This document shows positions 19,197-35,770 of a DNA stretch of 53,383 bases, piece after piece. This stretch comes from Gammaproteobacteria bacterium (GTDB lineage: Bacteria > Pseudomonadota > Gammaproteobacteria > GCA-001735895). The stretch spans positions 1 through 53,383 of the forward strand of contig JALSKD010000148.1 of NCBI GenBank assembly GCA_026989015.1. Direction: 5' to 3'. The notes beneath the pieces were generated by a model. It had not been told where the DNA came from, ran no database searches, and saw only the letters and a program-made list of their open reading frames with translations. The first letter of the stretch is position 1; each line of letters begins with the position of its first letter. Made by a program: the position numbers and the translations under genes.

Positions 19197-21419
19197 TCAT
19201 TTGCTGCCGTGGGTGAATGTGCCGTCCCAGTCCTCGCCCGGGGGCGAGTGGCGGTAACGGGCGATGCGCTCCAGATAGAGGGCATAGAGCCGGCTGTGCG
19301 GATGTTCCCGTGACAGATTGTAGAAATCGACTTCTGCGCCGTCCCAGTCCTGGCGGCGGTAGGCACGCAGCGCCTGGCGATAGCGGTTCAGTTCGTCGCG
19401 GACAGCCGCATCGAGGTCGTTCTTGTGCCCCAGTGGTTCAAAGATGGCCACCGGTTCCTGCTTGCCCTTGACGCGCACCCGGTCCAGTTCGCGGAACACG
19501 AAGTCGGGCACCTGCTCCCGCGTGCTCTCGCTGACGATGATGTCGACACCATAGGCCTTGGTCAGTCCTTCCAGCCGGGAGCCCAGGTTCACCGCGTCAC
19601 CGAGTACCGTGTAGGCCACGCGGAACTCCGAGCCCATATTGCCCACATTCATGCTGCCGGTATTGATGCCGATGCCGATGCGGATCTCCGGCCAGCCGCG
19701 CTGACGGAATTCCCGCTGCAGGTCCTTCAGCGCGCGCATCATGTCGAAGGCGGCCTGCAGCGCATGACGGGCGTGGTTCTCGTCGGACAACGGGGCGCCC
19801 CAGAAGGCCATGATCGCATCGCCCATGTATTTGTCGATGGTGCCGCGGTGTTGATGGATGACGCGTGTCAGCGGAGTCAGCAGTGCGTTCATCAGCGCCG
19901 TCAGCTGTGTGGGCTCCAGGCCTTCGGAGATACTGGTGAAGCCGCGGACATCGGAGAACAATACGGTCAGTTCGCGGTTTTCTCCTTCCAGGGAAAACCG
20001 GTGGCCGCTCCGGTTCATCTCGTCCACCAGTTCCGGCGGGATGTAGTGACCGAACATCCGGGCCAGCCTGCGCTTGCCCCGGGATTCGGCGAAAAACCCC
20101 CAGGTCATGTGGAACACGAAGAGCAGGGCGATCAGTACCAGGGTTGATGCCAGCGGCAGGATCAGGTTGTACTGCCAGGCAATGACAGACAGAGCCAGTA
20201 CGCCCAGCGTGATGGCCACGGTTACCAGGGTGGCGGACAGGGGTGGCAGCCAGGTCAGGGCCGCGCCGAGGAGGATGGCGACCAGGATCAGCTGGAGGAA
20301 TTCGAAGCCGGTGACCCAGGCCGGATGATGACGGATGCGGCCGTCGAGTATGCCGGAGATGAGGTTGGCATGAACCTCGACCCCGGGGAAGACATTCTCC
20401 ACCGGTGTCGACCTCAGGTCGAGCAGCCCGGGTGCCGAGGTGCCGACCAGCACGATCTTGTCATGGAGCAGTTCGCGATCCGCACTGCCTTCGAGCACCT
20501 TCCAGGCAGAGACATAGGGAAAGCTGCCGCGCGGACCACGATAGGGCACGAAGACCGCGCCCTGTGGATCCACCGGAATGCGTGCATCGCCGAGGGCGAT
20601 GGTTTCCAGGGCGTAATAGCTCTGATCGTTTTCGCTGGCGATCAGCAGTTCGATGTCGGGTTGGCCCAGAACCAGGCGCGCGGTGGCGAGGGACAGGGCG
20701 TCGTACAGCCCGTCACCGTGGATCTGCACCAGCGGTACGCGGCGAAACACGCCGTCGTCATCGACGAAGGGGTTGTCAAAAAAGCCGCCGCTGGCCGCGG
20801 CCCGCTGCAATATCGGCAGATTGGCGCTGTAGCCGACGGCGCGGTTGATCGGCAGCCGCTCCTTCCACGGGCCGTCAACCCGGCTGATGGGTGGCGGCAG
20901 CAGGCCGGTGTCTCCGGAGCTGCCTTCCTCGATGCGCGACTTGAAGTAATACCCCAGTGTGACGGGCCGGCCTTCGAGGGCGCGGGCAAAACGCCGGTCG
21001 TAGTCGAGTTGGGGCAATAAGCGCTGCAGTTCGCTCAGGAACGCTTCGTCTCCGGCCAGCGGCCCGCGTGCAAGCCGACGGAGGGTATCGGCTCCGGAGC
21101 TCAGGTCCGGTTCACCAAACAGGATGTCGTAGCTGAGGCTGCGGATGCCGTAGTCGTCGAACAGACGCCGGGTAAGATCGGCCAAGCGGTAGCGGGGCCA
21201 GGGAAAGCGACCAATGCGGGCCAGGGATGCCTCGTCGATATCGACGATGACGATGCGCGTGTCGATGCCGCGTGGCAGCGTCAGGTTGAGACGGGTATCG
21301 TAGGTCCAGTTTTCCAGTTGCTGCAGGAAGGGATACCGGACCAGGCCGCTGAGCGGCGCCAGCAGGAACAGCAGGATGAGCAGGCTGACGGCGAGCCGGA
21401 CGATGCGCTGCAGCGGCAT
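19197..21419 (-). CDS. CHASE2-domain membrane adenylate cyclase (class III)
   Basis: A 740-residue sensor cyclase. One N-terminal helix (about 5-27) leads to a periplasmic CHASE2 domain (about 40-360, with RIVIVDIDEASLARIGRFPWPR, shortened here to the hallmark IDEASLARIGRFPWPR). Three membrane helices follow (about 370-440), then the cytosolic cyclase domain (about 480-650). Catalytic residues are complete: metal ligands D490 (LFSDVRGFTS) and D534, adenine-selecting K530 (TIDKYMGDAIMAFWG) and D608 (VLGDAVNLGSRLEGL), with N611 and R615. K plus D at the base-recognition sites indicates ATP, hence cAMP. A helical tail follows. It ends the kinase/phosphatase/FHA/cyclase gene group. Confidence 0.92.
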   Translation of the reverse strand: MPLQRIVRLAVSLLILLFLLAPLSGLVRYPFLQQLENWTYDTRLNLTLPRGIDTRIVIVDIDEASLARIGRFPWPRYRLADLTRRLFDDYGIRSLSYDILFGEPDLSSGADTLRRLARGPLAGDEAFLSELQRLLPQLDYDRRFARALEGRPVTLGYYFKSRIEEGSSGDTGLLPPPISRVDGPWKERLPINRAVGYSANLPILQRAAASGGFFDNPFVDDDGVFRRVPLVQIHGDGLYDALSLATARLVLGQPDIELLIASENDQSYYALETIALGDARIPVDPQGAVFVPYRGPRGSFPYVSAWKVLEGSADRELLHDKIVLVGTSAPGLLDLRSTPVENVFPGVEVHANLISGILDGRIRHHPAWVTGFEFLQLILVAILLGAALTWLPPLSATLVTVAITLGVLALSVIAWQYNLILPLASTLVLIALLFVFHMTWGFFAESRGKRRLARMFGHYIPPELVDEMNRSGHRFSLEGENRELTVLFSDVRGFTSISEGLEPTQLTALMNALLTPLTRVIHQHRGTIDKYMGDAIMAFWGAPLSDENHARHALQAAFDMMRALKDLQREFRQRGWPEIRIGIGINTGSMNVGNMGSEFRVAYTVLGDAVNLGSRLEGLTKAYGVDIIVSESTREQVPDFVFRELDRVRVKGKQEPVAIFEPLGHKNDLDAAVRDELNRYRQALRAYRRQDWDGAEVDFYNLSREHPHSRLYALYLERIARYRHSPPGEDWDGTFTHGSK

Positions 21420-21479: not shown

Positions 21480-22199
21480 TCAGCGCGTATAGAACTCCAT
21501 CTTCACGCCGGCTACTTCAATGATGTCGTGGTCGTTGAGTCGGTGGGCATTGGAGCCGATCGGGCTGCCCGCGACCTTGGGCACGGTATTGTTGGGTCCG
21601 CCATCGACATGGATCAGGAAGAAGCCCTGAGGGCGGCGGGTGATGGCCGCCACCTGTACGCCGGGCTGGCCGATTGTGGTCAGGGCCTTCTTGAGTACCA
21701 GCTCCTTGCCGGCGTTGGCGCCGGAGAGCAGTTGCAGGCAGGCTTCCTTGCCTTCGGTACTGGAGGCCGATGCGGCGGCATTCTCCGATTGCAGCGCAGC
21801 GTTGATTTTCTGCACCGAGCGGTCGATCTCCTTGTCACCGGCCTGTTCCGGCATGCCGGCCTCGCCAGGCCGAATGATCATTGTCTGTTCGAAATCGCCT
21901 TCGGCCGCACCCTCGTTTTCGTACACCAGCTGAAACTTGCCCAGGGTGATGCGGTCGCCGTGCTCGAGTGCATGCTTCTTGATCAGCTTGCCGTTGACAT
22001 AGGTGCCGTTGGTGCTGCCCAGATCCTCGAGGAAGGAATCCTCCAGGATGGTGATTACCTGGGCGTGCTTGCCGCTCACCGACAGGTTGTCGATCTGGAT
22101 GTCGTTGCCGGGCTTGCGACCCAGGGTGGTGGTCTCCTTGGTCAGGGGATACTCCTGCCGCTCCCCGGCGCTCGATGTCATTACCAGTTTTGCAACCAT
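21480..22199 (-). CDS. FHA-domain phosphothreonine-reader protein
   Basis: A 239-residue cytosolic protein with an intact N-terminal FHA domain (about residues 18-92): LGRKPGNDIQI, LSVSGKHAQV and LGSTNGTYVNGKLI carry the expected phosphothreonine-binding residues. A linker follows with EGDFEQTMIIRPG, where T106 looks like a kinase target. A second, degenerate FHA-like domain fills residues about 155-239, ending DHDIIEVAGVKMEFYTR but lacking the usual SxNGT core. It lies between the PP2C gene and the CHASE2 cyclase gene, which suggests it reads phosphorylation by the neighbouring kinase. The ATG at 22199 fits the domain start; a longer frame upstream overlaps the PP2C gene. Confidence 0.88.
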   Translation of the reverse strand: MVAKLVMTSSAGERQEYPLTKETTTLGRKPGNDIQIDNLSVSGKHAQVITILEDSFLEDLGSTNGTYVNGKLIKKHALEHGDRITLGKFQLVYENEGAAEGDFEQTMIIRPGEAGMPEQAGDKEIDRSVQKINAALQSENAAASASSTEGKEACLQLLSGANAGKELVLKKALTTIGQPGVQVAAITRRPQGFFLIHVDGGPNNTVPKVAGSPIGSNAHRLNDHDIIEVAGVKMEFYTR

Positions 22200-22270
22200 C
22201 TTCTTTTCAGCCTCTTGTGTCGTTAGGGCAGGCCTTGCCTGCCCAGATGCAGTTGTCCCTGTTATCGGGC

Positions 22271-23092
22271 CTAGAACCATTCGATCAGTTTCTTGAACCA
22301 GCCTTTGGATTCCGAGAAATCCTCCTTCACCCGGCACAGGATGACCGAAATATTGTCCTTTCCGCCGTTTTGGTTTGCCTTTGTAATCAATTGCTTGGCG
22401 GCTTCTTCTAGATTATCACTAAATTCGGTGATAGTTAAGCTAATCTCGTCGTCCTCGATCAGATCGGTCAATCCATCGGAGCATAGCAGATAAATGTCCC
22501 CTTTCAGCACCAAGTCTTCCTGAAGATCGGCAGAAACCGTGGGATCGATGCCCAGTGCCTTGGTTACCAGGTTCTTGTTCAAGGACTTGCGCGCTTCTTC
22601 CGGAGTATAGAAGCCGCGGTCGATCAGTTCCTGCATCAGCGAGTGGTCCTTGGTCAACTGCTCCATCTGGCCTCCGCGCATGCGGTAGCAGCGGGAGTCG
22701 CCGATATGTGCCAGCGACAGCCGGTTGTCGTAGAACAGCAGGGTGACCACGGTCGTCCCCATGCCCCGCAATTCGGGGCCTTCGGCCGATTTGCGGTAGA
22801 CGCGGTCGTTGGCCAGTTCGATGGCGTCCTGGATACAGATCGATTCGAGGCTGAAGCCGGTGGCCGAATCCACCTGACCGCTACCGATGGCCGGCAGATG
22901 GGTCTGCACCTCTTCAATGATGGTATCCACGGTCATGCTGCTGGCGACTTCACCGCCGAGATGACCGCCCATGCCGTCGGCCAGCACCAGCAGGCCGAGC
23001 ACGCTGTCGTAGCCGATGCTGTCTTCGTTGCGGCGCCGCACCTTTCCGGTGTCGGTCAACCCGGCAATCTGGAGTTTGTCGCGGAGGTTCAT
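22271..23092 (-). CDS. PP2C-family Ser/Thr protein phosphatase
   Basis: A 273-residue metal-dependent phosphatase that should reverse the neighbouring kinase. All PP2C motifs are visible: RRRNEDSIGYD, LVLADGMGGHLGGE, MGTTVVTLLF, LAHIGDSRCYRMR, TKDHSLMQELIDRG, LLCSDGLTDLIEDDEI and GGKDNISVILCRV. The four metal-binding aspartates in these motifs are intact. Its ATG (23092) overlaps the kinase stop (ATGA), so kinase and phosphatase are translationally coupled. A stretch near 22380-22440 is more AT-rich than the rest of the gene. Confidence 0.94.
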   Translation of the reverse strand: MNLRDKLQIAGLTDTGKVRRRNEDSIGYDSVLGLLVLADGMGGHLGGEVASSMTVDTIIEEVQTHLPAIGSGQVDSATGFSLESICIQDAIELANDRVYRKSAEGPELRGMGTTVVTLLFYDNRLSLAHIGDSRCYRMRGGQMEQLTKDHSLMQELIDRGFYTPEEARKSLNKNLVTKALGIDPTVSADLQEDLVLKGDIYLLCSDGLTDLIEDDEISLTITEFSDNLEEAAKQLITKANQNGGKDNISVILCRVKEDFSESKGWFKKLIEWF

Positions 23093-25725
23093 GTGCGGAT
23101 CTTCAGGCGGCAGAGTTCGAGGTCATGGGCCAGATCTTCTCCCTTCTGGTAGCGTTCCGTCACCTGCTTGCTGAGCATGCGGTTGACGATGGCGGCCAGG
23201 CAGGAAGGGGCATCGGGGCGCAGATGGCGCAGATCCGGGGCGTCCTCGTTGGTGATCTTGAACATCAGGCTTGCCATGGATTCCGCCTTGAAGGGCAGGC
23301 TGCCGGTGATCAGCTGGTAGCCCATGACACCCAGGGAAAACAGGTCGGAACGCCCGTCCACCTTCTTGCCCGCCAGTTGTTCCGGTGACATGTAGGAGGG
23401 GGTGCCGAGTACCATGCCGGTCTTGGTCTTGCTCGAATCGGTGATGCGCGCGATGCCGAAGTCGGTCAGCTTCAGGGTGTCAGACTCGGGTTCGTACATC
23501 ACGTTGGCGGGCTTGATGTCGCGGTGGACGACATTCTGCCGGTGAGCGTAGTCGAGCGCCTGGGCGGCGCGAACCAGGATCGACACGACGCGGTCCAGCG
23601 GCAGCAGCCGGTCCGGTTTGGTGTATCGGCTCAGGTCATGGCCCTTGAGGAATTCCATGGCGATATAGGCGAGATCATGCTCCTCGCCGGCATCGTAGAT
23701 GGTGACGATATTCGGATGGCTGAGGCGGCCCGCGGTCTCGGCCTCGCGGAAGAAGCGCGACTTGACCTCGTCCAGTTCCTCGGGCTCGAACTCCTCGGCC
23801 AGCGCCAGGGTCTTGATCGCCACCACGCGACTGATCTTGGGGTCGCGGCCCAGATAAACCACGCCCATCGCACCCTTGCCGAGTTCCTTTTCGACCTGGT
23901 AGCGGCCAAGCATGGGTTTTTCCACGCTGCCGTCGTCGAGCAGCAGGGTGCCGCCCTTGTGACCGCCGCTGCCGAGCATGACGGTCTCGTCCATCTGGCG
24001 GGCCCGATCGGAGCGCTGGCGAATATCGCGGAAATCGGGGGCGTGTTTCGCCATGTACTGGTAGACACTGCCGGCCTTGTTGAACTGGCGTTTGCGCTCG
24101 AAATCCAGCGCCAGGCTGTAGAGGGCTTCCATGAGCTGATCGTCGAAGGCGCATTTGCGGAATTTCTCGAAGGCCATGTCCAGCTGGCCCTGCGACTGGA
24201 AGGCGATGCCCAGCATGCGGTTGGACTCGGAGGATTCCTCGTCGGAGCGTTGTTTGCCCCGCTCGGTCAGCAGGAAACGGCGGGTGGTGATCAGCAGATG
24301 GCCGGCCACCAGCAGAGCGGCCGGTGTCATCAGCTGGACCCACTGGGTCTGGGTCGTCATCAACAGGTAGTGGACGGTGACCAGGGCGAGCAGCAGTAAC
24401 AGAGTGACCGCGGCGGCGACGCCGGCCTTGAGCCGGGGCATCAGCAGCATCAGGTAGAGGGCCACCAGCAGAAAAGCGCCCAGCGTGGCCCAGATCCCCC
24501 ATTCGGGTTCGATGAAGAAATCCTCGTTGAGGATGCTCGACACCACATGGGCCAGCTCCAGCACTGGCGGCATGGCGGCGTCGACCGGTGTCACCTGAGC
24601 GGATCCGACGCCGGTGGCGGTGGCGCCGATCAGCACGATCTTGCCCGCGTACTTCTGCGGCGGGATCTTGCCGCTGTAAACATCGAAGAAGGAATCCATG
24701 GCAAAGGCCGGGCGCCCGTCCCTGCCGTTGGCGTAGTAGAAGGTCTTCATTAGCAGTTCGGGATCGGTCTTGATGCTCAGCGAACCCATTTCCACGCTCT
24801 CGCCTAGGTTCACCCGGATGTCCTCGACGCCGAGATTGAGGCTCTGTGCGGCCAGTTGCAGTGCGATCGACGGGTAGAAACGGTCATAGTGGCGCAGCAC
24901 CAGCGCCTCGGAACGGATCGCGCCGTCGATGTCAGGGATCAGATTGAGGTGGCCAATGGCCCGCGCCGGCTTGCCCACGGCAGGGATCGGGGGAATGGCG
25001 TCGAGGGTCGGCACCGGGAACAGGCCCTGGGCCTGGGCGTCGATGCGGTCGAAGATGTTGGGAATGGCATTGGCCAGCACATAGTCGGGCAGAGGCTGGT
25101 CGGGGCGCCCCCGCGGCTCACCGATGACGAAAGGCATGGCGAGCACCACATTGCCGGCATCGGCGATGGCGGCGGATAGCTTGCTGTCGGTGTCCAGCGC
25201 CTGCTCGGCCTCGATCAGCCGGGCCTTGAGGCCATCGATGTCGCGTGGCAGGCGGGTAGCAAGACTGGATTCGGCGAAGGTTTCCAGCAACGGCTTGATG
25301 CGGCGGTCGCCGCTGCGGGCCTGGAGCAGGGTGGTAAGGGTATCGATGTCGGCCGGAACCTCGCTGAAGCTGGCGTTGGAGACGAAATCGATCAGCTGCC
25401 GGATGTAGGCCATGCCCGGATCCTGCTGCGGTTCGAGGAAATAGACGGTCTCGCCGATCACCTTGGCGCCGCTCTCGGCCAGTCGTCGGATCATGTCGGC
25501 GTGGATGTCGCGCGGCCAGGGCCAGCGGCCGAGGTTGGCGATGCTGGCGTCGTCGATGGCGATCACGGCGACGCGATCCGAGGGTTGACGCTCGGTGGAA
25601 CGCACGCCCCAGTCGTAGGCGATGCGCTCCAGTCCCTGAAGAGCGGGAGTACCGGCTGCGAAAACGAAAACGGTGGTGATAGCGAGGCCGAGGAACCAGT
25701 CAGTGTTCCAGAATCGGGGTTTCAT
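23089..25725 (-). CDS. CHASE2-domain Ser/Thr protein kinase
   Basis: An 878-residue receptor kinase. Helix 1 (about 10-28) precedes a periplasmic CHASE2 domain (about 45-400; VAVIAIDDASIANLGRWPW). Three helices span about 410-480. A helical TPR-like linker (about 500-575) follows, then a Hanks-type kinase domain (about 608-870): P-loop LGKGAMGVVYLG, ATP-binding lysine K638 (VVAIKTL), catalytic HRDIKPANVM with D736, DFG D755 and the activation segment GTPSYMSPEQLAG. The arrangement differs from the PknB type, which is N-terminally kinase. The juxtamembrane MDETVML (T581) may be an autophosphorylation site. Its ATG has GGAGAG upstream. Confidence 0.94.
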   Translation of the reverse strand: MKPRFWNTDWFLGLAITTVFVFAAGTPALQGLERIAYDWGVRSTERQPSDRVAVIAIDDASIANLGRWPWPRDIHADMIRRLAESGAKVIGETVYFLEPQQDPGMAYIRQLIDFVSNASFSEVPADIDTLTTLLQARSGDRRIKPLLETFAESSLATRLPRDIDGLKARLIEAEQALDTDSKLSAAIADAGNVVLAMPFVIGEPRGRPDQPLPDYVLANAIPNIFDRIDAQAQGLFPVPTLDAIPPIPAVGKPARAIGHLNLIPDIDGAIRSEALVLRHYDRFYPSIALQLAAQSLNLGVEDIRVNLGESVEMGSLSIKTDPELLMKTFYYANGRDGRPAFAMDSFFDVYSGKIPPQKYAGKIVLIGATATGVGSAQVTPVDAAMPPVLELAHVVSSILNEDFFIEPEWGIWATLGAFLLVALYLMLLMPRLKAGVAAAVTLLLLLALVTVHYLLMTTQTQWVQLMTPAALLVAGHLLITTRRFLLTERGKQRSDEESSESNRMLGIAFQSQGQLDMAFEKFRKCAFDDQLMEALYSLALDFERKRQFNKAGSVYQYMAKHAPDFRDIRQRSDRARQMDETVMLGSGGHKGGTLLLDDGSVEKPMLGRYQVEKELGKGAMGVVYLGRDPKISRVVAIKTLALAEEFEPEELDEVKSRFFREAETAGRLSHPNIVTIYDAGEEHDLAYIAMEFLKGHDLSRYTKPDRLLPLDRVVSILVRAAQALDYAHRQNVVHRDIKPANVMYEPESDTLKLTDFGIARITDSSKTKTGMVLGTPSYMSPEQLAGKKVDGRSDLFSLGVMGYQLITGSLPFKAESMASLMFKITNEDAPDLRHLRPDAPSCLAAIVNRMLSKQVTERYQKGEDLAHDLELCRLKIRT

Positions 25726-25760
25726 GCGCTCTCCGGGCGAGGGCTTTTTTATTTCTTCTG

Positions 25761-25789
25761 ACTATATGTTTCAACGCGCCATTTTGCCA
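25761..25789 (-). promoter_or_regulatory. Possible promoter of the CHASE2 kinase operon
   Basis: On the minus strand a good -10 box TATAGT (25766-25761) has a poor -35 box TGGCAA (25789-25784) at 17 bases. It lies in the 230-base gap between the cyclic-nucleotide-binding rhodanese gene and the kinase gene, the only clear break in this leftward run. The gap holds no gene. Confidence 0.35.
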
Positions 25790-25955
25790 GCCGGAAACCG
25801 GAATAATGTGACGCTTATGGCGCTAATGGGCGCTGACGGCCTCGGATTCTGGTGTGTGGATGGTTTTTCGACCGTCTTACCGGTGCCTCTGGCTCCTGAT
25901 CGATGCGGGGGGAGCGCCCAGGATGACTGGGCAACGGCGGGCGGGCAGAGGGGAA

Positions 25956-27017
25956 TCAGCCTTCCTCGATGTCTGCGGCATCGGCGGCGTCAACGCCGCC
26001 CTTGAGTACGAAGGTTTCGATGTTTTTCTCGTTGAGCAGGAACGAGGCAGCGGAACTGCGGCGGCCGGTATCGCAATAGATGACATAGCGGCTATCCCTG
26101 TCCAGCGAGTTGGCCTTCATGCGCAGGAAGATCAGCGGTATGTTGATGCTGTTGCGGATGTGCTTGGTCTTGTGTTCGTCGGGCAGGCGTACATCCAGCC
26201 ACAGCCCCCCCTCATCGACGATGCGCCGCGCCTCGTCGTAATCGACCCAGTTGAGCAGCGGCTCGTTGAGCAGGGAGTTGAAGTCTTCCTTGTTCAGGCG
26301 CATCAGGCTGCCATTGGTGAGCATGGTCACGGTCGCGTTGCGCGCGGTGTCGGAGATCAGCGCTTCCTCGCCGAAGCTGTCGCCGACGCCCAGTGTGGCC
26401 AGCTTCACCCCCTTCGGGTTGGCGGGGGTGGAGCGGGTGACCAGGCAACGCCCTTCCTTGATGATGTAGAAGTAGTCGCCGGGTGCATCCTGCTCGATCA
26501 CCACATCACCGGCCTTGAAGTTGACCGGTTCCATGCGCATGAACAGGGCCTGGATGTTGGACGGCGGAATGCGGTGGAAGGCGCGGGTCTGCAGGATGCG
26601 GGTCATCCAGTCGGTGCCGTCGGTGTCGTCGCTTTCGTCCAGCGCCTCCACCTGGTAGCTTCCGGTCTGGTCCCAGGTGAGCATGATGTCCAGCATGTCG
26701 CTGTTGACATGGATCAGGGTCGCCGGTGAAGCGGCGCGCGCCGACACCGTGCGGGGAAAGGTATGTGCCAGCGGGTGACGGGCCTCTTCACTGCCGGCTT
26801 CGATGGTCTTGACCGTCTTGCCGTTGCTGATCAGTTCCACGCTGCCCTCGACGAGGTAGACATGGGCCTTGTCCATGTCGCCTTGCTTGAACAGGTATTT
26901 TCCCGGCTTGAGGTGGTGGGTCTTGACCTTGCCCAGCAGATCCTCGATGTTCTCGCTGTTCAGGGAGTTGATGGGGGTCAGCTGCTTGAGGAACGCGGCG
27001 TCAATCGGGTTGGGCAT
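25956..27017 (-). CDS. Cyclic-nucleotide-binding protein with C-terminal rhodanese domain
   Basis: A 353-residue cytosolic protein. Two cNMP-binding folds stand in tandem. The first (about 20-130) keeps LKPGKYLFKQGDMDKAHVYL but has no standard phosphate-binding cassette. The second (about 145-255) has VIEQDAPGDYFYIIKEG and the cassette SFGEEALISDTARNATV with the cNMP-contacting Glu and Arg. A rhodanese domain follows (about 260-350) with DVRLPDEHKTKHIRNSINI and the active-site loop YCDTGRRSS, where C315 is the sulfur-carrying cysteine. No DNA-binding helix-turn-helix is present. It lies directly upstream of the CHASE2 kinase operon that includes an adenylate cyclase, so cAMP control of sulfur transfer is a reasonable inference. 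Confidence 0.9.
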   Translation of the reverse strand: MPNPIDAAFLKQLTPINSLNSENIEDLLGKVKTHHLKPGKYLFKQGDMDKAHVYLVEGSVELISNGKTVKTIEAGSEEARHPLAHTFPRTVSARAASPATLIHVNSDMLDIMLTWDQTGSYQVEALDESDDTDGTDWMTRILQTRAFHRIPPSNIQALFMRMEPVNFKAGDVVIEQDAPGDYFYIIKEGRCLVTRSTPANPKGVKLATLGVGDSFGEEALISDTARNATVTMLTNGSLMRLNKEDFNSLLNEPLLNWVDYDEARRIVDEGGLWLDVRLPDEHKTKHIRNSINIPLIFLRMKANSLDRDSRYVIYCDTGRRSSAASFLLNEKNIETFVLKGGVDAADAADIEEG

Positions 27018-27110: not shown

Positions 27111-28856
27111 TCAACCGGACTGACGGGTGATATCGACATAGAGCTTCAGCTTTTGCCCGGGTTGCAGGTACTTGCCCAGCCGGTTCCATTTGCGGATATC
27201 GGACACGCGGACATTGAACTTGCTGGCAATGCGTGACAGCGAGTCGCCCTTGCGCACGGTGTAGCGTAGCGCATGCAGTTTGCGGCTTGCCGGCGACCGC
27301 GGCAACAGCGAAACATGCCGTGCGCGGGCCTTGGTGTTCTTCCAGATCACCAGTTTCTGGCCAACCCTGAGGGTGTCGATGGGGGCCAGTCCGTTCCAGC
27401 GCGCCAGCGAGCGTGTGCTCACGCCATAGGTGCGCGATATGCTCCAGAAACTCTCGCCCTTGCGCACCCGGTGGGTGATCTTGCGCTTGCCGCGCGGGCT
27501 GTTCTGCAACCGGTTGAGGCGCGCGCTCTGGCTCAGGGTGTACTGCTTGAGCGAACGGGTTGCGGTCGGGATCATCAGGTATTTTCCGGCGCGGATGCGG
27601 TTGCCACGGATGCCGTTGACCTGGCGGATGAGGCGGGCGGTGGTGCTGTGCCGCCGGGCGATTTGGCTCAGGGTGTCGCCCTTGCGAATCCTGTAGCGCA
27701 CCCAGTGGATGCGCTTGCTCTTGGGCAGCTTGGCCAGCGCTTCGTTGAATCGATCCATCGATGCGCGGGGCAGCAGCAGCCGGTGCGGACCGTCCGGCGG
27801 GGTGGCCCAGCGGTTGAAGGCCGGGTTGAGCTGGTAGAGTTCCTCGGTGCTGATGCCGGCGAGATCGGCAGCCAGCGCCAGGTCGATCTGGCTGTCCAGC
27901 TCGACGAGCGCGTAGCTGCGTTCGTCCTCGATGTGCAGCAGGTCGATGCCGTAGCGGTCCGGGTTGCTGAAGATCTCCTTCAGCGCCAGTAGCTTGGGCA
28001 CATATTCACGGGTCTCCCGGCGCAGTTTTCTGCCCAGGGACCAGAAATCCTGCCCGCGGCCCTTCTTGCGGTTGTATCGCCGCACCGAGCGGATTTTTCC
28101 GGGGCCGGCGTTGTAGGCGGCCAGAGCCAGTTCCCAGTCGCCATCGAACTGTGCGGCCAGATCCTTGAGGTAGCGTGCCGCGGCACGGGTGGATTCGATG
28201 ATGTCGCGTCGACCGTCGTACCACCAGTTCTGCTTCAGCCCGAGATGGCGGCCGGTGGAGGGGATGATCTGCCACATGCCGGAGGCGCGGCCGTGGGAGT
28301 AGGCGAAGGCCTGGTAGGCGCTCTCGACGATGGGCAGCAGGGCCATTTCGCTCGGCAGGTCGTATTCCTCGAGCACATCGAGAATGAACGGCAGCACCGG
28401 CTTTGCACGGTGCATGACGCGGTTGAGGTATTCGGGGTGCTTGAGGTACCAGTCCAGCTGTTTCCTGACCTGGGCATTGAGGACCGGTTTCATGCGCATG
28501 CCGCGCTGCAGGCGGGTCCAGGCATTGTTTTCCTGTTGCAGTGCGGCATCGGCCTGCTGGCGGATGTCGTCAGCGGGTTCGATGGGGGCCGGTATGACGG
28601 CTGGAGGAGGTTCGCCATCGCCGGATCGGGGTTCACCATCGGCGCGGGCCGCAAGGGCCTCGAAATCACCGCCGGGCAGGATCCGCGGTTGGGGGGAAGC
28701 GGCGGTTTCGGGCGCTGTGACCGAAGCCGTGTCCACGACCTCAGCCAGTTCCGGCGCGGGCCGTGCCAGGCCTTGGCTGTCGGGACGCAGGGCTTGGCAG
28801 CCGGTGGTGGTCAGCAGGGCCAGCAGCAGGCTGCCGAGGGTTTGAATTTTTCTCAC
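27111..28856 (-). CDS. mltD: Membrane-bound lytic murein transglycosylase D with three LysM repeats
   Basis: A 581-residue lipoprotein that cleaves peptidoglycan glycan strands. Residues 1-20 form a lipoprotein signal (LLALLTTTGCQ, C20; the T at -3 is atypical). After a Pro/Ala-rich linker comes the SLT domain (about 150-290) with catalytic E178 in LLPIVESAYQAFAYSHGRAS, then GMWQIIPSTGRHLGL and the AAYNAGPGKIR motif. Three LysM repeats follow, beginning YRIRKGDTLSQIA, HRVRKGESFWSIS and YTVRKGDSLSRIA. I chose GTG 28856 because it starts exactly at the signal peptide, and the nearest upstream ATG (28913) lies in the predicted -10 box. It is divergent from yafS-rnhA-dnaQ, as in many gammaproteobacteria. 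Confidence 0.92.
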   Translation of the reverse strand: MRKIQTLGSLLLALLTTTGCQALRPDSQGLARPAPELAEVVDTASVTAPETAASPQPRILPGGDFEALAARADGEPRSGDGEPPPAVIPAPIEPADDIRQQADAALQQENNAWTRLQRGMRMKPVLNAQVRKQLDWYLKHPEYLNRVMHRAKPVLPFILDVLEEYDLPSEMALLPIVESAYQAFAYSHGRASGMWQIIPSTGRHLGLKQNWWYDGRRDIIESTRAAARYLKDLAAQFDGDWELALAAYNAGPGKIRSVRRYNRKKGRGQDFWSLGRKLRRETREYVPKLLALKEIFSNPDRYGIDLLHIEDERSYALVELDSQIDLALAADLAGISTEELYQLNPAFNRWATPPDGPHRLLLPRASMDRFNEALAKLPKSKRIHWVRYRIRKGDTLSQIARRHSTTARLIRQVNGIRGNRIRAGKYLMIPTATRSLKQYTLSQSARLNRLQNSPRGKRKITHRVRKGESFWSISRTYGVSTRSLARWNGLAPIDTLRVGQKLVIWKNTKARARHVSLLPRSPASRKLHALRYTVRKGDSLSRIASKFNVRVSDIRKWNRLGKYLQPGQKLKLYVDITRQSG

Positions 28857-28911
28857 TTGGCGTATGATTCTTGTGTGTGTACTGTCGATGATGGGTATCG
28901 AAGCTGCGGGC

Positions 28912-28940
28912 ATGCTACCCGCCGATGTGCGGACTTGCAA
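28912..28940 (-). promoter_or_regulatory. Predicted sigma-70 promoter of mltD
   Basis: On the minus strand TTGCAA (28940-28935) and TAGCAT (28917-28912) are 17 bases apart, 56 bases before the chosen GTG start. The last T of the -10 box begins an ATG that would otherwise be an alternative start. Confidence 0.6.
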
Positions 28941-31139: not shown

Positions 31140-34124
31140 ATGTCCGTGTTCAAGACCGATGTCACCTACAACTTCATGCGCGATCTGCCGGACGAGATCT
31201 ATCTCGACCATGCCGCCGAACGCCCCTGCGACGCCAATCCGCTGCCGCAGTTCGAACCGCATGACCGGCAGGAAATCAAGTACACCACCTGTTACATGTG
31301 CGCCTGCCGCTGTGGCATCAAGGTGACCGTCGAGGACAACCAGGTCCGTTACATACAGGGCAACCGCAATCATCCGATCAACCGCGGCGTGCTCTGCGCC
31401 AAGGGCAATGCCGGCATCATGAAGCAGATATCGCCCGCGCGACTGCGCGCACCGCTGCGGCGCAAGCCCGACTCCGAGCGAGGCAGCGGCGAGTTCGAGG
31501 AGATCTCCTGGGACGAGGCACTGGATATTCTCGAAAAGCGCCTGCGCCACATCCGCGAGACCGATCCGAAGAAGCTGGGCTTCTTCACCGGTCGCGACCA
31601 GATGCAGGCGCTGACCGGACTCTGGGCGCAGCAGTTCGGCACCATCAACTGGTCGGCCCATGGCGGCTTCTGTTCGGTCAACATGGCGGCCGCCGGTCTC
31701 TACACCATGGGCCATGCGTTCTGGGAGTTCGGCGATCCCGACTGGGAGCGCACCAAGTACTTCATGCTCTGGGGCGTGGCCGAGGACCATTCTTCCAACC
31801 CGTTCAAGATCGGGCTGGAGACACTCAAGCGCAACGGCGGCAAATTCATCACCATCAATCCGGTGCGCACCGGCTACCAGGCCATCGCCGATGAATGGGT
31901 GCCGATCCGCCCCGGTACCGACGGCCTGTTCGCGCTGTCGATGATCCATGTGCTGCTCAAGAAGGACCTCATCGATCACGCGTTCATCGTCCGCTACACC
32001 AACGGGCCGCAACTGGTCATCGATGCGCCGGGCACCGCGAAACACGGCCTGATCGCCCGCGACGACAACGGCCGGCCGCTGGCCTGGGATCAGAAATCGG
32101 AAGCCTTCGTCGATGCCCTGCTGCCGGACATCGAACCGGCCCTGTTTGGCGAATACACCCTCCCCGACGGCACCCGGGTGAAGACCAGTTTCACGCTGCT
32201 GGCGGAACGCTATCTGGACGACGCCTACGCACCGGAGAACGCGGAGAAGGTCTGCGGCATCGCCGCGCGCGACATCGAACGCATCGCGCTGGAGCTGGCC
32301 CATGTGGCCTTCAAGGAGGCCATCGAGATCGAAACCGAGTGGACCGACTGGGCCGGGCGCAAGCACGACCGATTCATCGGCCGCCCGGTATCGATGCACG
32401 GCATGCGCGGCATCGCCGCCCATTCCAACGGTTTCCAGACCGCGCGCGCCATCCACTTTCTGCAGATCCTGCTCGGATCGGTGGACTGCCCCGGCGGCCA
32501 TCGCTCCAAGGCACCCTATCCCAAGCATGTGCCGCCGCCGATCAAGCCGGCGAAGGAGGTGCGCCCGAACACGCCCCTGTCGTCACCGCCTCTGGGTTTC
32601 CCCAAGGCGCCGGAGGATCTGGTCATCGACGATGACGGCAACCCTCTGCGCATCGACAAGGCCTATTCCTGGGAAGCGCCGCTGGCCAACCACGGCCTGA
32701 TGCACATGGTCATCAACAATGCGGTCAAGGGCGATCCCTATCCTCTCGACACCCTGATCTTCTTCATGGCGAACATGGCCTGGAACTCCAGCATGAACAC
32801 CGCCAACACCCAGGAGTTGCTGAAGGAAAAGGACGATAAGGGCGAATACAAGATCCCGTTTTTGGTGGTGGTCGATTCCTTCCATTCGGAGACGGTCAAC
32901 TTCGCCGATCTGGTATTGCCCGACACCACCTACCTGGAACGGCATGACGCCATCTCGCTGCTCGACCGGCCGATCTCGGAGCCGGATGCCATTTGCGACT
33001 CGGTGCGCATCCCGGTGATCGAGCCGGACCGTGATGTGCGGCCCTGGCAGGAAGTGATGGTGGAGATGGCCGGCCGTCTCGGTTTTCCGGCCTTCGTCAA
33101 CGAGGACGGCACGCCGAGGTTCAGTTCCTATACCGATTTCATCGTCAACTACGAAAAATCGCCCGGCGTGGGGTTCCTCGCCGGCTGGCGCGGCAAGGAC
33201 GGCGAATCGCATCTGGTCGGCGAACCGAACCCCGACCAATGGAAACGCTACGAGGAGAATCAGGCCTTCTTCGAATACCACCTGCCGGACCACATGAAGT
33301 ACTACAAGTTCGCCAACAAGGATTACCTGGAACTGGCGCACAAGGCCGGTTTCAACCACTCGGCGGAGCCGATCATCATGGAGCTGTATTCGGAAACCAT
33401 GCAGAAGTTCAAGCTGGCGGGGCAGGGGCTGTATGACGGGCCGCAACCCTCCAGTGATGTCGACCGCGAACGGCTGGCCAGGTATTTCGACCCGCTGCCC
33501 TTCTTCCACAAGCCGCTCGAGCAGGAGCAGACCTGCGACGATGAATACCCGTTCTTCGCCTTCACCCAGCGCCCGATGATGATGTACCACAGCTGGGATT
33601 CGCAGAATGCCTGGCTGCGTCAGATCATCGCCCGCAATTTCCTGTACATGAACCGGCAGCAGGCCGAGTCCATGGGCATCGAGGACGAGTCCTGGATCTG
33701 GGTCGAGTCCCACAACGGCAAGATCCGCTGCCAGGTCAAGCTGATGGAGGGTGTGCAGTCCGATTCGGTGTGGACCTGGAACGCGATCGGCAAGCAGAAG
33801 GGCGCCTGGGGCCTGGACGAGAACGCCAACGAAAGCTCCGAAGGTTTTTTGATGAACCACCTGATCTCCGAGCTGCTGCCGCCGAAGGCAGGCCGTCGTG
33901 AACTGACCAATTCCGACCCGGTCACCGGGCAGGCAGCCTGGTACGACCTGAAGGTGAAGATCTACCCGGCGAAAAAGGGCGAGACCGGGGTCTGGCCGCA
34001 ATTCGATCCGGTGCGCAAGCTGCCCGGATATCAGGGCCTGCTCGACACCATTCGTTACCACACCCATGCACCGGTGCGGCTCACGCGCTCGCTGTGCGAC
34101 ATCCTGACCAGAGGACAGAAATAA
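31140..34124 (+). CDS. soeA: Sulfite dehydrogenase (quinone) molybdoprotein subunit, SoeA-like
   Basis: A 994-residue molybdopterin oxidoreductase of the DMSO-reductase family. It would oxidise sulfite to sulfate and pass electrons to SoeB. The N-terminal 4Fe-4S site is C51, C54, C58 and C86 (TTCYMCACRCGIKV, LCAKG). A probable molybdenum-ligating cysteine is C178 in AHGGFCSVN. Pterin-binding regions follow (LWGVAEDHSSNPFK, ITINPVRT, VLPDTTYLERHD) and a C-terminal dinucleotide-binding domain. There is no Tat signal, which fits the cytosolic SoeABC type and argues against periplasmic Dms or Psr enzymes. Polysulfide or thiosulfate reductase-like function remains possible. The stop overlaps the soeB start (TAATG). 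Confidence 0.8.
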   Translation: MSVFKTDVTYNFMRDLPDEIYLDHAAERPCDANPLPQFEPHDRQEIKYTTCYMCACRCGIKVTVEDNQVRYIQGNRNHPINRGVLCAKGNAGIMKQISPARLRAPLRRKPDSERGSGEFEEISWDEALDILEKRLRHIRETDPKKLGFFTGRDQMQALTGLWAQQFGTINWSAHGGFCSVNMAAAGLYTMGHAFWEFGDPDWERTKYFMLWGVAEDHSSNPFKIGLETLKRNGGKFITINPVRTGYQAIADEWVPIRPGTDGLFALSMIHVLLKKDLIDHAFIVRYTNGPQLVIDAPGTAKHGLIARDDNGRPLAWDQKSEAFVDALLPDIEPALFGEYTLPDGTRVKTSFTLLAERYLDDAYAPENAEKVCGIAARDIERIALELAHVAFKEAIEIETEWTDWAGRKHDRFIGRPVSMHGMRGIAAHSNGFQTARAIHFLQILLGSVDCPGGHRSKAPYPKHVPPPIKPAKEVRPNTPLSSPPLGFPKAPEDLVIDDDGNPLRIDKAYSWEAPLANHGLMHMVINNAVKGDPYPLDTLIFFMANMAWNSSMNTANTQELLKEKDDKGEYKIPFLVVVDSFHSETVNFADLVLPDTTYLERHDAISLLDRPISEPDAICDSVRIPVIEPDRDVRPWQEVMVEMAGRLGFPAFVNEDGTPRFSSYTDFIVNYEKSPGVGFLAGWRGKDGESHLVGEPNPDQWKRYEENQAFFEYHLPDHMKYYKFANKDYLELAHKAGFNHSAEPIIMELYSETMQKFKLAGQGLYDGPQPSSDVDRERLARYFDPLPFFHKPLEQEQTCDDEYPFFAFTQRPMMMYHSWDSQNAWLRQIIARNFLYMNRQQAESMGIEDESWIWVESHNGKIRCQVKLMEGVQSDSVWTWNAIGKQKGAWGLDENANESSEGFLMNHLISELLPPKAGRRELTNSDPVTGQAAWYDLKVKIYPAKKGETGVWPQFDPVRKLPGYQGLLDTIRYHTHAPVRLTRSLCDILTRGQK

Positions 34125-34813
34125 TGCGACTCGGCCTCGTCATCGATCTCGACGTCTGTGTCGGCTGCAATGCCTGCGCGGTGTCCTGCAAGCAGTGGAA
34201 CACCTCCGGCACCACCGGCCCGCTGACCGACTATGCCCCCTACAGCAAGGACCCGAGCGGGGTCTGGTTCAACCGCATCCGCAACTTCGAGATCGGGGAT
34301 TACCCGAACAACAAGACGGTGCATTTCCCGATGTCCTGCATGCACTGCGAGGACGCGGCCTGCGTTACCGTGTGTCCGACCGGCGCGTCCTACAAGCGCA
34401 AGGAGGACGGCATCGTGCTGGTGGATCAGGACAAGTGCATGGGGTGCAACTACTGTTCATGGGCCTGTCCCTACGGTGCCCGCGAACTGGACCGCGAGGA
34501 CGGCACGATGAAGAAATGTACCCTCTGCATCGACCGCATCTACGACAAGAACCTGGCCCCGGAAGACCGTCAGCCGACCTGCGTCATCACCTGTCCGGCC
34601 CATGCGCGGCATTTCGGGGATTTCGACGACCCCAACTCCAATGTCAACAAGCTGGTGCGCGAGCGCGGCGGCAACGCGCTGATGCCGGAGCTGGGCTACC
34701 GGCCCACCAACATGTACCTGCCTCCGCGCGCGGTGAAGCAGGAGCCCACGGTGCAGAAGGACAGCATCATCAGCAAGGTCAAGGACTGGGTCAATCGGTC
34801 CATCGCGCGCTGA
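34124..34813 (+). CDS. soeB: Iron-sulfur electron-transfer subunit, SoeB-like
   Basis: A 229-residue ferredoxin-like protein that should carry electrons from the molybdoprotein to the membrane subunit. Four 4Fe-4S cysteine clusters are visible: DVCVGCNACAVSCKQ, CMHCEDAACVTVCPTGA, DKCMGCNYCSWACPYGA and KKCTLCIDR with CVITCPAHA. The length fits DmsB/NrfC-type subunits. The ATG at 34124 overlaps the soeA stop and has GAGGACAG upstream; an earlier in-frame ATG lies inside soeA and was not used. Confidence 0.9.
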   Translation: MRLGLVIDLDVCVGCNACAVSCKQWNTSGTTGPLTDYAPYSKDPSGVWFNRIRNFEIGDYPNNKTVHFPMSCMHCEDAACVTVCPTGASYKRKEDGIVLVDQDKCMGCNYCSWACPYGARELDREDGTMKKCTLCIDRIYDKNLAPEDRQPTCVITCPAHARHFGDFDDPNSNVNKLVRERGGNALMPELGYRPTNMYLPPRAVKQEPTVQKDSIISKVKDWVNRSIAR

Positions 34814-34840
34814 GCCGCGCATTCAACATCGGAGACTTCC

Positions 34841-35770
34841 ATGCATCCCGCACTGTCCGTCATTTTCTTTACCGTCATGTCCGGCTCCGGCTATGGCCTG
34901 ATGACCCTGCTCATCATCAGCATCGTGTTCGATGTGGATGGCGGCATGAGCCATCAGCAGGTCATCGTCACCTCGCTGGTCGCTCTGGGGCTGATCACCG
35001 CCGGCCTGCTGTCGTCCAGCTTTCATCTGGCCAACCCGAAGAACGCCTGGCGTTCGATGAGCCGCTTTCGCACCTCCTGGCTGTCGCGCGAGGCGGTGCT
35101 GGCGATCACCTTCTACCCGTTCACCTTCCTTTGGCTGTTGCAGTGGTATCTGGGGCACGGGCTTGAAAACCGCTGGACCCTGCTGTTGACGGTACTGGTG
35201 TTCATGGGATCGGTGATGGTCAATTTCGCCACCGGCATGCTCTATGCCACGCTGAAAACCATTCCCCAGTGGAACACCTCGCTGACCCCGGCCAACTTCA
35301 TGATGCTGGGCATGATGCTGGGCAGCCTGCTGCTGACCACGCTGCGCTTCTACTTCGGGCTGCCGGTGGAACAGTTGCTGATCATTGATCTCGGTTTTCT
35401 GGCCACCGCCGGCACGCTGAAACTGATGTATTTCTTCTGGGTCGGCAAGCCCCATGGCCCGAGCATCAACACCGCCACCATGTTCACCCGTGCCACGGTG
35501 CGCCTGTTCGATGTCGGCCATACCTCCGGTACCTTCCTCACCGACGAGTTCGGCTACCAGGTGGCGCGCTTCCGCATCATGTTGTTGCGCTACGCCGTCT
35601 ACCTGTTCGCCTTCATCATCCCGGCGCTGTTCCTGCCGATGAGCATGAGCTTCGAAAGCGCGTTGACGCTGACCCTGACGGCCTTCCTCGGGGTGCTCAT
35701 CGAACGCTGGCTGTTCTTTGCCGAAGCGCGCCATGTCGTCACCCTGTACCACGGCAACCAGCGGGTCTGA
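34841..35770 (+). CDS. soeC: DmsC-like membrane anchor and quinone-binding subunit, SoeC-like
   Basis: A 309-residue integral membrane protein with about eight helices, starting MHPALSVIFFTVMSGSGYGL, as in SoeC/DmsC-type anchors. Helices lie near residues 7-30, 40-62, 85-108, 112-135, 145-168, 175-198, 240-262 and 265-285. The N-terminal SSSFHLANPKNAWRSMSRFRTSWLSRE stretch (residues about 59-85) corresponds to the conserved loop after helix 2. It anchors SoeAB to the cytosolic face and hands electrons to quinone. It follows soeB after 27 bases and ends the operon, tail to tail with soxR. Confidence 0.87.
   Translation: MHPALSVIFFTVMSGSGYGLMTLLIISIVFDVDGGMSHQQVIVTSLVALGLITAGLLSSSFHLANPKNAWRSMSRFRTSWLSREAVLAITFYPFTFLWLLQWYLGHGLENRWTLLLTVLVFMGSVMVNFATGMLYATLKTIPQWNTSLTPANFMMLGMMLGSLLLTTLRFYFGLPVEQLLIIDLGFLATAGTLKLMYFFWVGKPHGPSINTATMFTRATVRLFDVGHTSGTFLTDEFGYQVARFRIMLLRYAVYLFAFIIPALFLPMSMSFESALTLTLTAFLGVLIERWLFFAEARHVVTLYHGNQRV

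Follow-up and report, generated by a model that had tools for sequence, protein, structure and literature searches.

The locus and its genes

The window (the whole stretch of 53,383 nucleotides analysed here) carries on its minus strand a gene for P0001, a protein of 353 residues in which two cyclic-nucleotide-binding (CNB) domains, referred to below as CNB-A and CNB-B, precede a rhodanese domain. The first-pass annotation had placed this gene at 25956-27017, which is exact for the open reading frame, and had left the strand unstated. It had also located a CHASE2-containing cyclase four genes away in the same direction, and this holds: the genes for a kinase, a PP2C phosphatase and an FHA-domain protein come first downstream on that strand, and the cyclase gene is the fourth. 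The features are listed by position in the window, with their basis in parentheses.

25956..27017, minus strand: CNB-CNB-rhodanese protein P0001, 353 aa (open reading frame, Pfam, predicted structure)
26664..26975, minus strand: first CNB domain (CNB-A, residues about 15-118), degenerate, with R80 at the Glu position and R89 kept (gapless overlay on the second CNB domain)
26256..26609, minus strand: second CNB domain (CNB-B, residues about 137-254), with the intact cassette FGEEALISDTARNAT (Pfam, alignment, fold match to 3pna)
26340..26369, minus strand: phosphate-binding cassette E217...R226 of the second CNB domain (sequence and 141-member alignment)
25983..26246, minus strand: rhodanese domain (residues about 258-345), with the six-residue loop CDTGRR (Pfam and fold match to 3ict)
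26073..26075, minus strand: putative active-site cysteine C315 of the rhodanese domain (sequence and alignment)
23089..25725, minus strand: CHASE2-Ser/Thr protein kinase (Pfam)
22271..23092, minus strand: PP2C phosphatase of the Stp1/IreP type (Pfam; NCBIfam NF033484, 251.1 bits, cut-off 230)
21480..22337, minus strand: FHA-domain protein, start codon uncertain (Pfam)
19197..21419, minus strand: CHASE2-class III nucleotide cyclase (Pfam; motifs at residues 488, 529 and 605)
27111..28940, minus strand: MltD-like lytic transglycosylase, a conserved upstream neighbour (Pfam SLT and LysM)
25726..25955, no strand: gap where relatives have a GAF-HD-GYP gene (flank alignment to genome G001)

The cyclase residues 488, 529 and 605 are taken to be the metal-binding and transition-state motifs. 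Elsewhere in the window, positions 31140-35770 of the plus strand hold a set comprising a molybdopterin oxidoreductase, a ferredoxin-type Fe-S protein and a DmsC/NrfD-like membrane subunit; no NCBIfam model scored above its cut-off for this set, the layout of which presumably resembles that of the SoeABC sulfite oxidase.

Domain anatomy and predicted structure

Against Pfam, P0001 scored above the curated cut-offs for cNMP_binding (99.3 bits for the whole protein, in two stretches) and for Rhodanese (51.2 bits). The earlier statement that the protein has no DNA-binding domain agrees with the same scan, which detected no DNA-binding family; the score against the CRP model NF008732 was 24.2 bits (cut-off 266), and the C-terminal helix-turn-helix of CRP/FNR proteins was not found. 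Likewise, the description of one intact and one degenerate cyclic-nucleotide-binding domain proved accurate: CNB-B retains E217 and R226, presumably the ribose and phosphate contacts, respectively, and CNB-A, which can be laid over CNB-B without gaps across the cassette, carries R80 where the Glu would be and retains the cassette Arg as R89. Active rhodaneses follow a six-residue-loop rule for their catalytic cysteine, and in P0001 C315 lies in a six-residue loop accompanied by R320, D275 and R277; both C315 and the second-cassette Arg lie where the first-pass annotation had put them. The combination that defines the family here, two CNB domains plus a rhodanese, occurs in P0001 in one full-length frame, together with the second defining trait, an intact CNB-B Glu/Arg cassette plus a Cys in the rhodanese loop; P0001 matched the 343-position model of alignment A1, of which it is itself row 1, with an E value of 3.6e-164.

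An AlphaFold2 model of P0001, built on 112 rows (alignment A2), reached a mean pLDDT of 87.6 and a pTM of 0.66, at which the predicted arrangement of the domains is uncertain; residues 120-135, between the two CNB domains, fell below a pLDDT of 50. In the model, helix 243-254 is the last of CNB-B and the rhodanese domain starts directly after it, at about residue 258; the lid helix that usually follows the CNB domain in PKA and CRP is therefore predicted to be missing. Structural comparison with VIA-align matched CNB-B to cAMP-bound PKA RIalpha (3pna; Z 18.6, rmsd 2.4 Å over 121 residues, 32% identity) and the rhodanese domain to CoADR-RHD (3ict; Z 17.5, rmsd 1.5 Å over 101 residues, 34% identity) and to a persulfide reductase (3ntd; Z 16.1), while the top Foldseek ranks were taken by tandem CNB proteins of PKG and PKA. 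The ligand of the CNB domains cannot be read from the predicted fold.

Distribution and residue conservation

Searches with profile A1 (a 25-row alignment; match threshold E <= 1e-30) recovered full-length members in 170 of the 369 sampled genomes of the class, representing 124 of 272 genera, a recurrence that excludes chance as the source of the three-domain architecture; paralog counts from this class search, which scored at most five candidates per genome, are lower bounds. In a sample of the phylum, members were present in 17 of 299 genomes, 5 of these from other classes. Within the GTDB family of the window (f1), 31 of 36 genomes hold a full-length ortholog, two give partial matches (G018 and G029) and three give none (G009, G023 and G028); the genome of the window itself has one full-length copy. 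Among the named relatives with a member are the Olavius algarvensis Gamma 3 endosymbiont and numerous gammaproteobacterial MAGs. Two genomes of GTDB family f160, which also includes genomes with members, yielded no more than partial matches, none above 48 bits (G447 and G451); CbpA (PA4704) of Pseudomonas aeruginosa as a close homolog was set aside with these matches in view. A mobile origin was considered and set aside after two queries: tblastn found no plasmid matches for P0001, and for one divergent member the matches listed held only CNB stretches of rhizobial plasmid proteins. The gene in the window is a typical, ordinary member of a common family.

For closer comparison, 194 fetched loci were reduced to 141 distinct full-length members, of which 116 entered the family tree; the partial rows L112 and L114 were dropped from the alignment. 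Since 80 regions were picked by hand from the class and phylum matches, the shares of fused and standalone forms among the loci are no estimates of frequency. Conservation, expressed as the mean share of the top residue, was lowest in CNB-A (0.49) and amounted to 0.65 in CNB-B and 0.60 in the rhodanese domain. Among the 141 distinct members, the residues of the CNB-B cassette and of the rhodanese site are nearly invariant: E217 is Glu in 135, R226 is Arg in 139, C315 is Cys in 136, D275 is Asp in all 141, R277 is Arg in 139, G318 is Gly in 139 and R320 is Arg in 135. At the corresponding cassette of CNB-A, R89 is Arg in 120/141 and position 80 is mostly R, L or K.

The two sites are also kept together. 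E217, R226 and C315 are all present in 131 of 141 members; five keep the Cys without both ligand residues, two keep both ligand residues without the Cys, and three have lost the Cys and a ligand residue alike. A ligand residue is thus missing in 3 of the 5 members without C315 versus 5 of the 136 with it (Fisher p 0.001), a figure that rests on two lineages, as L076 and L077 are sisters in the tree. These two members (L076:5616-6671, minus strand; L077:9136-10197, plus strand) have Asp for the rhodanese Cys and Gln for the CNB-B Glu, and both adjoin genes of a branched-chain-amino-acid-type ABC transporter (assigned by eye).

A proposed cyclic-nucleotide-gated rhodanese

Computation thus establishes the domains of P0001, its conserved residues, its fold and their family-wide co-conservation. 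The best single explanation, to which a probability of about one half is assigned, is that P0001 is a cytoplasmic, persulfide-carrying rhodanese gated by a cyclic nucleotide, with cAMP as the most likely ligand; the identity of this ligand, the sulfurtransferase activity, the allosteric coupling and a sulfur acceptor are the parts that we infer. A cyclic nucleotide, most likely cAMP from a class III cyclase, would bind CNB-B through E217 and R226; binding would then shift the rhodanese domain through helix 243-254, because almost nothing lies between this helix and the rhodanese and a separate lid helix is lacking; and the shifted rhodanese would change the uptake of persulfide sulfur by C315 or its hand-on. 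CNB-A probably has a structural role or binds another anion. The tendency of members without C315 to miss a ligand residue supports such gating, and the persistence of five members without C315 speaks against it. The first-pass annotation had argued that cAMP acts directly on sulfur transfer; the anatomy and the plausibility of a direct effect on the rhodanese stand, given the 131 members that keep all three residues and the helix link; a shared operon with the cyclase is not supported.

The cyclase, CRP and sulfur metabolism of the host

The operon is not borne out by comparison with relatives. In 18 of 20 f1 relatives, the side of the CNB-rhodanese gene that faces the kinase-cyclase genes is adjoined by an opposite-strand GAF-HD-GYP gene, the two running tail to tail; one of the 18 is a remnant (109 aa, L047:9408-9737), the gene is absent in L049 and L050, and the kinase, where it is on the same piece, lies beyond the HD-GYP gene. 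Both sides of the gap in the window align at 92-93% to the HD-GYP flanks in G001, a genome of the same genus (locus L038), and neither a remnant in the gap (25726-25955) nor an ortholog elsewhere in the genome of the window was found, the best match there being 37% over 126 residues. Because the opposite-strand gene has been lost in this genome, the CNB-rhodanese gene came to adjoin the kinase-cyclase genes on the same strand only recently, and the view that an operon shared with the cyclase is ancestral is rejected. Between the CNB-rhodanese gene and the kinase-cyclase genes of the window, no terminator was found on the minus strand, and the scanned region held a single weak promoter-like site on that strand, immediately ahead of the kinase gene, versus 0.4 expected; judging from the sequence, these genes could now be co-transcribed. 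Fragments of the CHASE2-kinase gene occur in L050 and L054, and the HD-GYP and kinase genes of the locus decay repeatedly.

The host also has other candidate receptors and sources of cAMP. Its genome encodes a CRP ortholog (349.5 bits, cut-off 266), as do 46 of the 55 genomes searched at that cut-off, and two class III cyclases; P0001 is therefore not the only candidate receptor, nor is the cyclase of the window the only source. The notion of P0001 as the sole cAMP effector, by virtue of an absent CRP, is refuted by this ortholog, and the earlier wording that cAMP acts here rather than on transcription is likewise not implied. A realistic alternative, put somewhat below even odds, is that the cyclase serves only CRP and other targets and that the CNB-rhodanese gene lies near it by inherited order without being its effector. 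The CRP orthologs, the second cyclase and the opposite-strand gene that separates the two genes in relatives all favour this account, against which stands the persistence of the cyclase at the locus: it is in place in 14 of 21 f1 loci, the remaining 7 pieces ending before its position. Outside f1, a cyclase lies near a member in only 3 of 105 loci (L062, L143 and L154), which counts against the gated rhodanese as well as against a cyclase operon. Two of these loci, L062 and L143, are placed away from f1 in the tree and have a CHASE2 cyclase directly next to the member in convergent orientation, versus 0.14-0.35 such loci expected (P 0.009-0.049 under a rough Poisson model); this recurrence supports the gated rhodanese and weighs against a cyclase devoted to CRP and other targets.

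A direct action of cAMP on sulfur transfer had further been said to suit a sulfur-oxidising host. The host does carry dsrA (636.5 bits, cut-off 392.85), in line with sulfur metabolism, but G041, G042 and G043, three genomes without a dsrA match, have full-length members as well; the family is thus not confined to sulfur oxidisers, and specificity for such organisms is rejected. Arguments from an operon or from a sulfur-oxidising host should both be dropped.

Neighbours and fusions across the family

The neighbourhood of the gene follows its lineage. MltD is present in 20 of 21 f1 loci and in 8 of 105 others. Elsewhere, other subfamilies adjoin amtB (19 units), glnK (17) and aroE (19), and further ones a fadJ-like gene with holB/tmk, or nadK (all names assigned by eye). 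Members cluster in the tree by context: f1, the nadK group and the C-extended group each need a single change, and six context groups together need 7 changes versus 51.3 in shuffles. Six loci of the nadK group have a gene from one and the same cluster directly upstream; the one such gene examined (from L171) had its best match in the D-cysteine desulfhydrase family, below the cut-off.

Fusions add a second layer. C-terminal extensions were seen in 24 of 130 member rows in the context loci, which were chosen by hand and give no estimate of frequency. Four of the loci (L061, L175, L181 and L189) have the CNB-CNB-rhodanese module at the head of frames of 1469-2033 aa that end in an FGE-sulfatase-like domain; at L185:3704-8629 (minus strand), the module is fused to PP2C (residues 419-625) and a long further C-terminal part in a frame of 1642 aa. 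In L073 the module is fused after a SulP permease, and in L114 a part resembling CoA-disulfide reductase (476.6 bits, below the model cut-off of 578.8) is joined to CNB and rhodanese domains; the partners in these last two are sulfur-related and support a gated rhodanese.

Such contexts also bear on the possibility, considered unlikely at perhaps one chance in four, that the rhodanese is an input, with C315 sensing persulfide or an oxidant, a cyclic nucleotide as second input, and the protein serving as a hub for the kinase, PP2C, FHA and HD-GYP proteins. These partners recur in the 105 non-f1 loci (FHA in 8; PP2C in 8, one a fusion; a convergent HD-GYP gene within 1 kb in 7; the kinase in 4), and the direct PP2C fusion of L185 and the long proteins with a C-terminal FGE-sulfatase-like domain point the same way. 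However, MltD, rnhA and dnaQ (the latter two in 10/105 non-f1 loci each) are housekeeping neighbours that travel along with the locus, so the gene order may be inherited rather than functional, and most members outside the subfamily of the window have the other neighbours named above, such as amtB-glnK and aroE. Taken together, fusions and neighbours provide sulfur links and signalling links alike and decide for neither.

The ligand of the second CNB domain

A different doubt attaches to the ligand. The position next to the cassette Arg, N227 in P0001, holds Asn in 132 of 141 distinct members; of the 30 consensus motifs that a published survey gives for the cassette (PMC2246266, Table 1), not one shows Asn there, so the ligand may differ. 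That the CNB domains bind neither cAMP nor cGMP in the cell, and instead have a different ligand or serve a structural role, as several Crp/Fnr relatives do, is nonetheless thought improbable, at about one chance in five. This family-specific Arg-Asn cassette, the cAMP-independent trypanosomatid PKA regulatory subunits among the fold matches and the loss of the CNB-B Glu in L065 and L068, both of the window's own subfamily, are in its favour; the Glu and Arg kept at E217 and R226 in 135 and 139 of 141 members, respectively, argue against it.

Least probable, and quite unlikely, is that the family forms a general gammaproteobacterial hub in which cAMP would gate the rhodanese and persulfide would be passed or reported to PP2C, the CHASE2 kinase and FHA proteins, a reading that the L185 fusion and the repeated PP2C/FHA/HD-GYP neighbourhood leave open and that, if true, would amount to a CRP-independent cAMP output by protein persulfidation.

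Relation to known proteins

Returning to the proposed gated rhodanese, each half of P0001 has counterparts among characterised proteins. The regulatory tandems of PKA and PKG share its tandem CNB fold; P0001 differs from them in having a rhodanese output instead of a kinase and a first CNB domain without the ribose Glu. CoADR-RHD (3ict) and the NADH-dependent persulfide reductase (3ntd) share the rhodanese fold of P0001, which has the active-site Cys; to our knowledge, neither contains a CNB domain. CbpA (PA4704) of Pseudomonas aeruginosa, which is not a transcription factor, combines a degenerate N-terminal with an intact C-terminal CNB domain, a layout like that of P0001 by description rather than by sequence; we know of no rhodanese domain in CbpA. 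According to a review, cAMP acts globally only via CRP in most bacteria, and CbpA is a further cAMP effector in P. aeruginosa (PMC11139211).

The CNB-rhodanese architecture itself is already known and common, and P0001 is no isolated oddity. A 2007 survey lists bacterial CNB domains joined to a Rhodanese homology domain, with no function given there; its 'Other_bacterial' family 23 has the same domain pair and the same canonical Glu/Arg cassette as P0001, and the text consulted neither describes a tandem layout for the rhodanese proteins nor gives their residues or context (Kannan et al., 2007, PMC2246266). No functional test of any CNB-rhodanese protein was found in the literature searched, which included few subscription papers. 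With members in 170 of 369 sampled genomes of the class and nearly invariant ligand and catalytic residues, the family is a clear candidate for a CRP-independent, enzyme-directed cAMP output, and it could show whether cAMP acts beyond gene switching in these bacteria.

The 'Bact_Pyrredox' family 13 of the same survey places tandem CNB domains on a pyridine nucleotide-disulphide oxidoreductase (PMC2246266); the likeness lies in the redox/sulfur enzyme, as in L114, and P0001, unlike that family, has no oxidoreductase part. A CNB-CNB paralog of the present family that lacks the rhodanese domain was seen at G036:C27:23971-24693, in a frame of 257 aa.
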